DNA of 64,000 nt from Yoonia maritima (lineage in GTDB: Bacteria > Pseudomonadota > Alphaproteobacteria > Rhodobacterales > Rhodobacteraceae), in NCBI RefSeq assembly GCF_002933395.1, contig NZ_PKFN01000009.1:1-64000 (forward strand), written 5' to 3'. Both the position numbers and the translations under genes were made by a program. Positions 145-21,330 of this stretch are shown in pieces (position 1 is the first letter of the stretch; every line of letters starts with the position of its first letter). The notes under the pieces were generated by a model that worked only from the letters and a program-made list of their open reading frames with translations, made no database searches and was not told the DNA's origin.

Positions 145-169
145 GTAAGCGTTGCATATGACCCCCTAA
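145..169 (+). repeat. IS66-type terminal inverted repeat, left
   Basis: The 25 bases begin GTAAGCGTTGCAT and end GACCCCCTAA. They lie 62 bases before the tnpA start and just after the tRNA-Met gene. The GTAA tip is usual for IS66-family ends. A short palindrome, CCCCTAAATAGGGG, follows directly and may belong to the transposase binding region. Confidence 0.8.
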
Positions 170-230
170 ATAGGGGCTTAGCACATTCGATTTGAGAAAA
201 TATGATGTCCTCAAAAAGGATACAGGCATC

Positions 231-665
231 ATGAATACTCAAACATTAGGTGCGCTCTCAAGTGATCAGAAAATCGACAAAGTCTTCCACGCCTTCGGAT
301 ATTCAATTCCCGTCGGAAAAGACGGCCGCCGTTTGTGGCCCACAAAGTTCAAGCGCGAAATGGCGCATCGAATGAGATCCGGTACGCTATCAATCAGTGA
401 CGTCCAGAAGACGTGCCAGATTTCGGACAAGACTGCCTACGCTTGGCGGAAGGGGCCGAAGCAAAAGAATTCGGCAAAGCGACAAAAGCTCCGGGAACCC
501 GCGCCAGTATTTGCCGAGATCAAGGTTCAACATGATGTGCCAGTTGAACAAACCGAGACGTCTCACATTGTTTTCAAACGCGCCGGATGTGAAGTGTTGC
601 TGCCATCTACATACCCTGTCGCTGACTTGGTCGGCCTCATCCGTGCATTCGAAAGCGGATCATGA
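231..665 (+). CDS. tnpA: IS66 family accessory protein TnpA
   Basis: This 144-residue protein matches the small TnpA of IS66 elements, a helix-turn-helix protein needed for transposition together with TnpB and TnpC. The part around 'SGTLSISDVQKTCQISDKTAYAWRKG' (a run cited in pieces: SGTLSISDVQKTC, then ISDKTAYAWRKG) is the HTH. The C-terminal 'GCEVLLPSTYPVADLVGLIRA' region (GCEVLLPSTYP, then LVGLIRA) is the usual TnpA tail. I chose the ATG at 231, preceded by AAGGA, over a TTG 39 bases upstream. Its stop overlaps the tnpB start as ATGA, so the two are translationally coupled. Length and ends look intact. Confidence 0.88.
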   Translation: MNTQTLGALSSDQKIDKVFHAFGYSIPVGKDGRRLWPTKFKREMAHRMRSGTLSISDVQKTCQISDKTAYAWRKGPKQKNSAKRQKLREPAPVFAEIKVQHDVPVEQTETSHIVFKRAGCEVLLPSTYPVADLVGLIRAFESGS

Positions 666-1012
666 TTTCTCCGGCGGGCAACTTCAAATTTTACGTGGCA
701 AGCAAGCCGGTCGACTTCCGAAAGGGGATGGACGGCCTCGCAGCGATTGTTCAAAACGAATTTGATCTTGACCCGTTCAGCGGGGCCATCTTCATTTTCC
801 GCTCGAAACGTGCGGACCGGCTCAAGCTGATTGTTTGGGACGGCACTGGCCTCGTGATGACCTACAAGCGGATCGAGGGCAAAGGCTTTGAATGGCCGCG
901 CATTCAGGATGGCATGATCAACATGAACAAATCCCAGTTTGAGGCCCTATTTGAAGGTCTCGACTGGAAGCGGGTCACCGCCAGAGGAATGCGCCGTCCT
1001 GTGGCGGTTTAA
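662..1012 (+). CDS. tnpB: IS66 family accessory protein TnpB
   Basis: This 116-residue protein is a full-length IS66 TnpB (the IS66 Orf2 family). Hallmarks are 'KPVDFRKGMDGLA' near the N-terminus, 'LIVWDGTGLVMTYKR' in the middle and 'FEALFEGLDWKRV' at the end. TnpB is required for IS66 transposition but its biochemical role is unclear. It overlaps tnpA by four bases. In ordinary IS66 elements tnpC would follow within about a hundred bases; here a phosphoesterase gene follows 49 bases downstream and tnpC lies over 10 kb away. Confidence 0.93.
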   Translation: MISPAGNFKFYVASKPVDFRKGMDGLAAIVQNEFDLDPFSGAIFIFRSKRADRLKLIVWDGTGLVMTYKRIEGKGFEWPRIQDGMINMNKSQFEALFEGLDWKRVTARGMRRPVAV

Positions 1013-1061
1013 GACAAACAGCATTGAGACCGGACAACACTTCAAAGGTTGGAATCGCGAG

Positions 1062-19140: not shown

Positions 19141-19174
19141 GCTTTCCGTCGCTCATTCTTTTGCGACGGAAAGC
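19141..19174. repeat. Perfect 12-bp inverted repeat between catalase and phasin-like genes
   Basis: GCTTTCCGTCGC (19141-19152) and GCGACGGAAAGC (19163-19174) are exact reverse complements with a 10-base loop. A smaller hairpin, GTTGGGA-GGT-TCCCAAC, lies at 19101-19117. Neither is followed by a T-run on the minus strand. They may act as an mRNA processing or partial termination signal after the catalase gene. Confidence 0.55.
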
Positions 19175-19270
19175 ACTAGTTCATTGTTTTCATCAAGTAA
19201 GGTAGAAGTGCAAAGTTCGAGGGCTTTACCGTGTAGGTTGCGCCCCTTAGCAGCGCATCAGGGATGTAGA

Positions 19271-20788
19271 TTAACCGCTAATGCTCTTAGCAGACGCAAG
19301 GCCTGGAGCATCCGATGCGCCGCCCAGTTTTTCGCGAACGCCGGCTTCTATTTTGTCACCAGTGTCGCGGTCAATGTTGCGCCAGTATTCGAACGCACGC
19401 TGAAGAACCTTTTCACTAACACCCGCGGTCAAATGTCCAACGACATTGTCGACCAGACGTTTGCGCGCGTCGTCGTCCATAACTTTTCGAACAAGGTTTC
19501 CCGCTTGGGTCCAATCATCATCATCTTCACGAAGGGTATAAGCCTGACGCACCATTTCGCCGTCAGCATGCCATAGACCCGCTTCGTCACCCGGTTCGGG
19601 TTGGGCAGATGGGCCGCCGTAAGAGTTCGGGGCATAGATAGGATCTGCCACATTCACGGTACGCCCCGCACCATCCTTTGAATAGCTGTGGACCGGCGAC
19701 TTGGCGCTGTTCACCGGTATGTGCTTGTAGTTCACGCCCAGCCGTGCCCGGTGGGCGTCAGCATAAGAAAAGCCGCGCGCCAAAAGCATCTTGTCCGGCG
19801 ACAAGCCAATACCCGGAACCATGTTGTTCGGCTCAAATGCTGCTTGTTCGATCTCGGTATGAAAGTCAGTTGGGTTTCGATTCAATGTCAGCGTGCCCAC
19901 TTCCATCAACGGATAATCCGCATGCGGCCATACTTTTGTGAGGTCAAACGGATTGATACGATAGGTCTTGGCATCCTCAAATGGCATCACCTGCCATTTT
20001 AAGGTCCAGCTTGGGTGGTCACCTTTGGCGATCGAGTCAAATAGATCACGACGGTGAAAATCACCGTCAGTCCCTGCAAGTTTGTCCGCTTCATCTTGGC
20101 TGAGGTAAGCGTTCCCGTCACCTTGATTGGTATGGAAGTGGAACTTGACCCAGAATTTCTCTCCCTCAGCATTGATCAGGGAATATGTATGGCTCGAATA
20201 TCCATTCATCTCGCGCCATGTCTTTGGGATACCACGGTCCCCCATAAGATAAGTAACCTGATGCGCACTTTCGGGGGACAAAGTCCAGAAATCCCATTGC
20301 ATGTCATGATCACGCAAATTGTTGTCCGCACGCCGTTTTTGACTGCGGATAAAGTGTTGGAATTTCAATGGGTCACGAATGAAGAATATCGGCGTATTGT
20401 TCCCTACCATGTCAAAGTTACCGTCTTCGGTATACATTTTGACCGAGAAACCGCGCGGATCGCGCCAAGTATCAGGGCTGCCGCGTTCGCCAGCTACGGT
20501 AGAAAAACGCATCACAACATCACATTTCGCACCGGGTTGGAAAATCTTGGCTTTGGTAAACCGCGATACATCTTCCGTCGTTTCAAAGGTACCAAAGGCT
20601 CCAGACCCTTTCGCATGCGGCTGACGTTCGGGGATGCGTTCACGGTTGAAATTGGCCATTTGTTCAAGAAGATAATGGTCGTTCAATACAATTGGCCCGT
20701 CGGGGCCCACAGTAAGTGAGTGCTCATCGCTTTGAACACGTATACCGGCATCAGTTGTTGTCGGCGGTGTGGCTTTATTGCTGGTCAT
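19271..20788 (-). CDS. katA: Monofunctional haem catalase
   Basis: This 505-residue protein is a small-subunit clade 3 catalase, which splits hydrogen peroxide to water and oxygen in the cytoplasm. The N-terminal 'FNRERIPERQPHAKGSGAFG' (FNRERIPERQPHA, KGSGAFGTFE) carries the catalytic His, 'MRFSTVAGERGSPDTWRDPR' (MRFSTVAGERG, SPDTWRDPRG) is typical, and 'GRGFSYADAHRARLG' (here 'ARGFSYADAHRARLG') contains the haem-ligand Tyr region. I chose the start MTSNKA with AGGCAGG upstream. The gene is intact. It lies inside the IS66-type boundaries, next to the right end. Confidence 0.95.
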   Translation of the reverse strand: MTSNKATPPTTTDAGIRVQSDEHSLTVGPDGPIVLNDHYLLEQMANFNRERIPERQPHAKGSGAFGTFETTEDVSRFTKAKIFQPGAKCDVVMRFSTVAGERGSPDTWRDPRGFSVKMYTEDGNFDMVGNNTPIFFIRDPLKFQHFIRSQKRRADNNLRDHDMQWDFWTLSPESAHQVTYLMGDRGIPKTWREMNGYSSHTYSLINAEGEKFWVKFHFHTNQGDGNAYLSQDEADKLAGTDGDFHRRDLFDSIAKGDHPSWTLKWQVMPFEDAKTYRINPFDLTKVWPHADYPLMEVGTLTLNRNPTDFHTEIEQAAFEPNNMVPGIGLSPDKMLLARGFSYADAHRARLGVNYKHIPVNSAKSPVHSYSKDGAGRTVNVADPIYAPNSYGGPSAQPEPGDEAGLWHADGEMVRQAYTLREDDDDWTQAGNLVRKVMDDDARKRLVDNVVGHLTAGVSEKVLQRAFEYWRNIDRDTGDKIEAGVREKLGGASDAPGLASAKSISG

Positions 20789-21305
20789 GACCTGCCTTTC
20801 CGTGATGGCTTTCAGGAGCTTCAATGTTTACAAACGTGACGAGGCGCTAAAAAGTTCCGCCTAAAGATGATCTAGGATCGACCAGAATCGTGACCTAGGC
20901 CAATCGATGTGACACAATTTCGGACGATCCGGGCATATTGGCGCGTGGAGATATGCTGACGTTCGTGAAGACGTTCAGGCTGTCATTTTTATCCGTTAAA
21001 ACCGCCAATAAATTAGCAACTATACATACTGATAACAGAATTTGGTCATGAGCTGCTATCAAAGTCCGCGACGGACACAGCAGAGCTAGGCGCAATCGCA
21101 GCGAATTGGGGCTTGGCCCCGCAGACTGTGAGTTCGCCCGGTGTCGGGTGTTGCACTTGCAGCGAATGGCGGCAATGCGGGCTGCGACCGCAGCATCGCG
21201 ATCAGTCGCTGGATGTCGGCTTTGGGCCGGATGTGCATAAATTTGCACTTCCGTATTGGCGTACCGCCAATATAGCCCTTGGTTGTTGGTCGCGGAAGAC
21301 ATCAA
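20789..21305. other. Intergenic region between catalase gene and right IS66-type end
   Basis: No convincing gene is seen in this 517-bp stretch, though a short minus-strand frame is open. It must hold the catalase promoter. ATCGTGACCTA occurs at 20887-20897; the same 11 bases occur inverted at 28691-28701 before the capsule-export genes. The part from about 21070 looks like decayed intergenic repeat sequence. Confidence 0.6.
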
Positions 21306-21330
21306 TTAGGGGGTCAGATGCAACGCTTAC
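21306..21330 (-). repeat. IS66-type terminal inverted repeat, right
   Basis: The reverse complement reads GTAAGCGTTGCATCTGACC followed by CCCTAA and matches the left repeat at 145-169 in 24 of 25 bases, with one A/C change. It abuts a fragment of an IS3 transposase gene, which begins within a few bases on the right. Confidence 0.8.

Follow-up and report, generated by a model that had tools for sequence, protein, structure and literature searches.

Can an IS66 element, from a family treated as short insertion sequences, move 21 kb of DNA as one unit? The question is raised by a 64,000-nucleotide stretch of Yoonia maritima (assembly GCF_002933395.1, contig NZ_PKFN01000009.1, positions 1 to 64,000), the whole of which we call the window. 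In it, matching ends lie at 145 and 21330, and the transposition genes tnpA and tnpB are parted from tnpC by a block of other genes. Our analysis indicates that this segment very probably belongs to a family of large unit transposons with an IS66 element as their frame, and the 21-kb window copy would have moved as one unit. Its ends, transposition genes and putative regulatory parts are as follows.

145 to 169, plus strand: left terminal inverted repeat, matching the right end at 24 of 25 nucleotides; GTAAGCGTTGCAT is identical in all 8 aligned relatives.
231 to 665, plus strand: tnpA (IS66 OrfA), an open reading frame with a weak PF01527 match below the cut-off; 92% identical in Actibacterium.
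662 to 1012, plus strand: tnpB (IS66 Orf2); PF05717, E 2e-37; 99% identical in Actibacterium.
10900 to 10926, no strand: palindrome upstream of ner, a candidate operator, conserved in Epibacterium and Actibacterium.
11069 to 11317, plus strand: gene for a Ner-like helix-turn-helix (HTH) regulator, just before tnpC; PF13693, E 5e-9.
11508 to 13184, plus strand: tnpC, DDE transposase of 558 aa; PF03050, E 2e-89, also PF13817, PF13005 and PF13007.
21254 to 21273, no strand: subterminal palindrome TATTGGCGTACCGCCAATAT of the right end; the only copy in the window, and in the other fetched loci found solely beside family ends.
21306 to 21330, minus strand: right terminal inverted repeat; the element's final 170 bp share 76% identity with the corresponding end of SC52.

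A first-pass annotation had proposed 25-bp inverted ends 21 kb apart with one mismatch and, between them, three complete IS66 genes in order with tnpC 10.5 kb from tnpB, and both proposals held. The inverted pair is the top-listed inverted repeat of positions 1–22500, and its quality is far beyond chance, about 0.0001 such pairs being expected in 64 kb. Both termini begin with GTAA, as IS66-type ends do. The right-end sequence has no further site within 8 mismatches anywhere in the window, and no end of a compact copy lies just after tnpC. The ends enclose one tnpA, one tnpB and one tnpC, and not a full insertion sequence copy at each end as in a composite transposon. The order of the three genes is kept across a tnpB-to-tnpC gap of 10,496 bp; the compact arrangement is absent from the window, and we class the element as a variant of the IS66 family because the split recurs in six ner-bearing relatives. 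The open frame of tnpA spans 192–665 with a likely start at 231, and TnpC has D, D and E motifs at residues 285, 349 and 480, which we take to be the catalytic positions. The ratio of nonsynonymous to synonymous substitution rates in tnpC is 0.08–0.11 in three pairs among the window, Epibacterium and Actibacterium, indicating purifying selection.

Evidence for a transposon class comes from relatives with the same ends, which we found by scanning fetched loci for a 16-nt end core together with transposition genes. Perfect 8-bp duplications flank 11 of the 14 opposed-end pairs that we took as elements, against a chance of 1.5e-5 per pair; the three pairs without a perfect duplication are the window (3/8 matching), G036 (L030, 1,527 bp; 4/8) and G836 (3,084 bp; none). 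This count leaves out weaker alternative pairings within loci already covered (window 7471, L054 2584, L088 507 and L099 9692) and a 136-bp pair in L054. The elements with a perfect 8-bp duplication are the following.

SC52 plasmid element, 14,442 bp: full layout.
Thioclava sp. FTW29 plasmid element, 15,434 bp: full layout.
Actibacterium lipolyticum element, 11,715 bp: full layout.
G318 element, 16,569 bp: full layout, with one TAA stop in the tnpC frame.
G280 element, 14,296 bp: full layout.
Octadecabacter ascidiaceicola element, 11,075 bp: only the end of tnpC found.
Uncultured Rhodobacteraceae element (L053), 4,259 bp: only the end of tnpC found.
G348 element, 3,808 bp: only the end of tnpC found.
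G093 element, 5,289 bp: family ends, tnpB and tnpC about 0.5 kb apart, no ner detected.
G396 element, 1,886 bp: no tnpC found.
G856 element, 3,097 bp: no tnpC found.

The full layout, shared by five duplicated relatives of 11.7–16.6 kb, runs end, tnpA, tnpB, cargo 1, Ner-like regulator, tnpC, cargo 2, end. The first-pass annotation had suggested an IS66 transposon with two cargo blocks and had proposed searching for the same ends elsewhere with 8-bp duplications; such elements exist in SC52, Thioclava, Actibacterium, G318 and G280, with different cargo, and support the suggestion. The Octadecabacter, L053, G348, G396 and G856 elements look non-autonomous, judging from their gene content. The left-end pattern matched 21 of 394 genomes (one site for the reversed control), and a protein scan of genome contigs yielded five loci. 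With the Thioclava TnpC as query at E 1e-140, the sole match among 385 genomes of the class lay in the window's own genome. Plasmids searched for Ner gave SC52 alone, and Thioclava's divergent Ner was missed, hence this search is insensitive. The window Ner has 96% identity in Epibacterium and 95% in Actibacterium, and Ner proteins elsewhere reach 41–77% identity with one or the other of two query sequences.

The right end of the window copy is tied to this transposon family by its palindrome. The pattern TWTTGGC...GCCAAKAT lies 75–78 bp inside most right ends (99 in Thioclava) and adjoins 14 family ends. Across 1.47 Mb of fetched loci (overlaps recounted) it occurs beside family ends only; wherever the orientation could be assigned, that end is the right one. 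Searching genomes with palindrome plus end gave 11 sites in 10 of 390, and the reversed control gave none. The right end itself aligns with that of SC52 at 76% over 172 nt.

Comparison between elements reveals a modular construction. Window and Actibacterium share 88% nucleotide identity over the left 1.5 kb and 86% over the 2.5 kb of ner-tnpC, with no other match. Homology breaks at window position 1648 against the copy on contig C3 described below (20 bp past the phosphoesterase gene), near 10780 and near 13277. The module boundaries (about 1634–1645, 10780–10792 and 13267–13278) lie at an intergenic CATTCGCYGC-like motif, presumably a common repeat of this group, and the motif may be a place of cargo exchange. 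The distance from tnpB to tnpC is 5.8–10.5 kb in seven ner-bearing elements, in contrast to 178–377 bp in the seven ordinary IS66 copies fetched, in which no ner gene was detected; the two genes are also distant in G044 (7.7 kb; its TnpC groups with that of G270) and G005 (4.1 kb). The transposase gene seems to be exchangeable too, because G270 (L088) shares slot 1 and ner with G318 (L073) at 91–94% nucleotide identity but has a very different TnpC, only 31–34% identical to seven other TnpCs compared, in an apparent swap. In the TnpC tree, the ner-bearing TnpCs except that of G270 stand apart from seven ordinary ones with a support of only 84/89; the long-branched ordinary row G005 falls inside the ner-bearing group, and G270 groups with G044 and G093.

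What these modules enclose differs from element to element. The window carries the following, the first item being part of the left module.

1062 to 1628, plus strand: metallophosphoesterase-like gene beside tnpB, present in one sub-lineage; 91% identical in Actibacterium.
1649 to 10780, no strand: cargo slot 1, a copper/metal block; Actibacterium matches solely on its two sides.
13278 to 21253, no strand: cargo slot 2, with a heme-oxygenase-like open reading frame, a bacteriophytochrome histidine kinase, an FAD-NAD(P) protein and a catalase.

The metallophosphoesterase-like gene is without a Pfam match, and its Actibacterium orthologue matches PF00149 just under the cut-off. Slot 1, for the most part on the minus strand, encodes glutaredoxin-MauE, DUF305, multicopper oxidase, CopD, CopC, cytochrome c, DUF411, a cNMP-binding regulator, MerR and a CDF cation exporter. 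The open reading frame in slot 2 that we presume to be a heme oxygenase has no Pfam match. This gene content agrees with the earlier description of metal-resistance genes in the gap and light/oxidative-stress genes after tnpC. PADLOC was run on nine window proteins and showed no defence system among them: seven were without a match, MerR matched a small HTH model (mad1), and the phosphoesterase-like protein matched a marginal model.

Predicted anti-phage genes are frequent in the relatives. PADLOC was run on 20 proteins from nine relatives, chosen for looking like defence genes, and gave strong matches in eight of the nine; G270 and G312 among them are known with a single end each. The matches comprise type I restriction (SC52, Thioclava, G318, G270), a type I methyltransferase (G312), a type IIG enzyme (G280), Gabija with GajA and GajB (G318), a Dsr1-like SIR2 protein (Octadecabacter), DRT-type reverse transcriptases (Octadecabacter and G312) and a retron-type reverse transcriptase (L053), with weaker matches to OLD/AriA-like ATPases in Actibacterium and G280. 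The Epibacterium element carries catabolic genes, judged from its open reading frames, three proteins in G050 are subtilase- and peroxidase-like, and slot 2 of Thioclava is annotated with a heavy-metal P-type ATPase and a multicopper oxidase. In G857 (L148, 5405–10273), a 1,622-aa protein behind tnpC has the look of a restriction-domain NTPase, with marginal Avs2-type PADLOC matches only, and two right ends lie behind it, 109 bp apart. Cargo is interchangeable between elements, copper and phytochrome/catalase genes being the window's version, and it may benefit the host.

Where the elements sit is the next question, and the two flanks of the window copy are relevant here.

1 to 77, plus strand: tRNA-fMet (ARAGORN, Rfam), 100% identical to the tRNA-Met closing an rrn operon in Thioclava.
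21331 to 21475, plus strand: 3' tail of a transposase gene of IS3 type; its 5' part is cut off precisely where the element ends.

Position 1 of the window is the start of contig C10, at a tRNA-fMet, a type placed at the 3' end of rRNA operons, and the left end lies 68 bp past it. Among 39 loci, 12 have an end at most 1 kb downstream of an rrn 3' end or tRNA-fMet, and 15 do so if three more downstream of tRNA-Phe or tRNA-Lys are counted. Of the 11 duplicated elements, 5 lie this close behind rRNA/fMet and 7 behind any tRNA, with probabilities near 5e-13 and 7e-12 if 4 rRNA operons and 45 tRNAs in 4 Mb are assumed. A second sample was collected with the right-end pattern and excludes the window and the Octadecabacter copy, G856 being common to both; there, three of eight places lie 133–147 bp behind fMet, 5S or tRNA-Phe. 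Distances to the tRNA range from 68 to 647 bp. Two split tnpAB elements in G005 (L040, L041) stand downstream of rRNA operons, one of them between two operons, and have no recognised right end. Degenerate IS66-like ends with 6 mismatches occur right behind tRNA-fMet in two other genomes of the genus (L036 10895; L030 3727–3751).

A model that accounts for these data is that TnpC, with TnpA and TnpB, would act on the GTAAGCG... ends, move all that lies between them and produce 8-bp duplications. The unit consists of a left module (end, tnpA, tnpB and, in one lineage, the phosphoesterase gene), a middle module (ner, tnpC) and a short right end that usually has a palindrome, with two slots, tnpB-ner and tnpC-right end, which take multi-gene cargo exchanged among elements; the window copy possesses each of these components. 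The Ner-like protein probably represses tnpC through the nearby palindrome, and insertions are enriched just behind rRNA operons and some tRNA genes.

Several observations weigh against this reading. The 39 loci are family ends or genes, many of them single ends or fragments and several from the same genome. One of eight ordinary IS66 control loci (L081) also lies behind an rrn operon, so the site bias may be general to IS66, and plain tolerance of sites flanking rRNA and tRNA genes would yield the same picture. The Thioclava element is 647 bp away from its tRNA, and no rRNA or tRNA gene lies within 1 kb of the G280, L053, G396 and G856 elements. Not every family member is split: G093 is compact although it is duplicated and has the family ends. 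A search for the palindrome failed at the ends of G036, G396 and G312 and, with the strict pattern, at G043. The window copy is single in its own genome and is without an 8-bp duplication. No empty site is shown for any element of the family: 44 of 56 genomes of the genus match the tRNA-fMet flank, the best relative only to base 109, and a search of plasmids with the Thioclava flanks found none. Lastly, the copper cluster apparently also travels by other routes, because it has relatives in G024, G006 and G050 without family ends nearby. Cargo in the same chromosomal place without the ends, which the first-pass annotation named as a counter-sign, was not found: the copper-cluster relatives in three genomes of the genus lack ends in the 19.5–20 kb read around each, the sameness of place not being established. 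Beyond these points, the right flank of the Thioclava element shows similarity to part of a cytosine methyltransferase gene (71% across 219 bp; L125, a Pseudosulfitobacter plasmid, and L029 23799), the match starting at the element's last base.

The lack of a duplication at the window copy (TTTACACC vs CTGAGATG, 3/8 matching) agrees with the first-pass annotation, and its suggestion of a later rearrangement is supported by the flanks. One flank has probably been lost, because the left end follows the 3' side of tRNA-fMet and the right end abuts the IS3-type tail. Four further loci of the genome hold sequence 87–90% identical to that tail, and two of these match PF13333/PF13683, as we take IS3-type transposases to do. 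Insertion into the IS3-type gene would put CTGAGATG on the left; the tRNA flank is there instead, which fits either an adjacent deletion that the right end started and that ran into an IS3-type copy, or recombination of two elements. The second of these, which leaves the unit transposon family intact, is a tentative possibility: the left half would come from a copy behind an rRNA operon and the right half from a copy in an IS3-type element. It is consistent with ends intact to the last base between unrelated flanks, with a tail that starts exactly at the right end, and with a further end on contig C3 of the same genome (L006, 120319–121823), a second, truncated left module of 90% nucleotide identity over 1,505 bp. 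However, the genome has no second high-identity tnpC copy, the own-genome matches listed for slot 2 and the right flank (five of six) include, besides the window, the transposase tail only, and adjacent deletion accounts for the same data with one element. Of these two candidate causes we consider adjacent deletion slightly the likelier. The C3 left module is inserted in another, diverged metallophosphoesterase gene, which on its own has matches in roughly twelve of the genus's 56 genomes. Two further causes were rejected. Inversion is not supported, the only other genomic end at one mismatch (C3) lying outside an IS3-type gene, although contig breaks leave room for it; recombination between rRNA operons would leave the bases adjoining the end unchanged.

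It is very unlikely that the window holds a patchwork, in which a broken compact IS66 (left end, tnpA, tnpB, phosphoesterase) happens to lie near an unrelated tnpC and right end with ordinary chromosome between. The missing duplication, the truncated left module on C3, and compact or tnpC-less relatives such as G036 (no duplication) and G856 (with duplication) would suit it. But the module order recurs with duplications in five relatives, for which we reject it; in addition, ner-tnpC matches Actibacterium together with the left module, and the window right end has the family palindrome and resembles that of SC52. Scarcely credible is an island or other integrative element that a different recombinase moves and in which the IS66 genes are passengers: its site behind a tRNA gene is that of many islands, but between the final 40 nt of the tRNA and window positions 78–30000 the longest shared words are 9 nt (direct) and 10 nt (inverted), which is why we reject it, the relatives are bounded by IS66 ends and 8-bp duplications at varying distances from the tRNA, and no integrase family appears among the 23 window proteins scanned (part of the open reading frames). 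Parts of the unit transposon that the first-pass annotation had missed are the metallophosphoesterase-like gene, the Ner-like HTH gene and the right-end palindrome, along with tRNA-fMet, the IS3-type tail and the rRNA-site bias.

How does this family compare with known systems? The window and its relatives resemble the IS66 family in TnpA, TnpB and a TnpC with DDE_Tnp_IS66, in GTAAGCG-type ends and, for the relatives, in 8-bp duplications. They also resemble tIS66 elements such as ISPa75 with fosZ, in which IS66 machinery is joined to genes unneeded for transposition. ISPa75-fosZ measures 2,996 bp and has a single passenger, which follows the transposase; passenger genes occur in 7 of 25 Pseudomonas IS66s in ISfinder (PMC12888890). 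Compared with ISPa75 as described there, the family has multi-gene cargo, two slots of which one precedes tnpC, a size of up to 21 kb and a regulator. The window thus shares with tIS66 the passenger genes inside its ends, and not the pattern of one or a few genes behind the transposase. In the open-access library searched (titles and abstract openings) we found no account of IS66 transposons that are large, have two slots and bear both ner and defence cargo. One or a few passenger genes are a known feature of IS66 elements, and we regard the large two-slot ner-bearing form as a new one.

Tn7 and Tn7-like elements are alike in their large, defence-rich cargo and frequent site behind an essential gene. 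They differ in using another transposase, and the target bias here is not shown as active choice; no TnsABC or TnsD/TniQ occurred among the 23 window proteins scanned, with no dedicated search made. The Ner of phage Mu is alike in being a PF13693 HTH protein encoded by a small gene beside the transposase, and differs in that the protein here would act on an IS66-type transposase gene. It is quite possible, though we hold the idea tentatively, that an IS66 lineage of Rhodobacterales has independently become a Tn7-like vehicle: regulated, with two slots of exchangeable defence (sometimes metal/stress) cargo, an active preference for sites behind rRNA operons and tRNA genes, and a transposase swapped as a module.

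For the IS66 family, these findings mean units of 11–21 kb in which entire defence and resistance systems split the transposition genes apart, and gene-by-gene annotation would miss such units because of that split. With their recognisable ends they are a defined vehicle by which defence systems may pass among marine bacteria, and they allow the question of why a transposase inserts behind rRNA operons to be tested directly.

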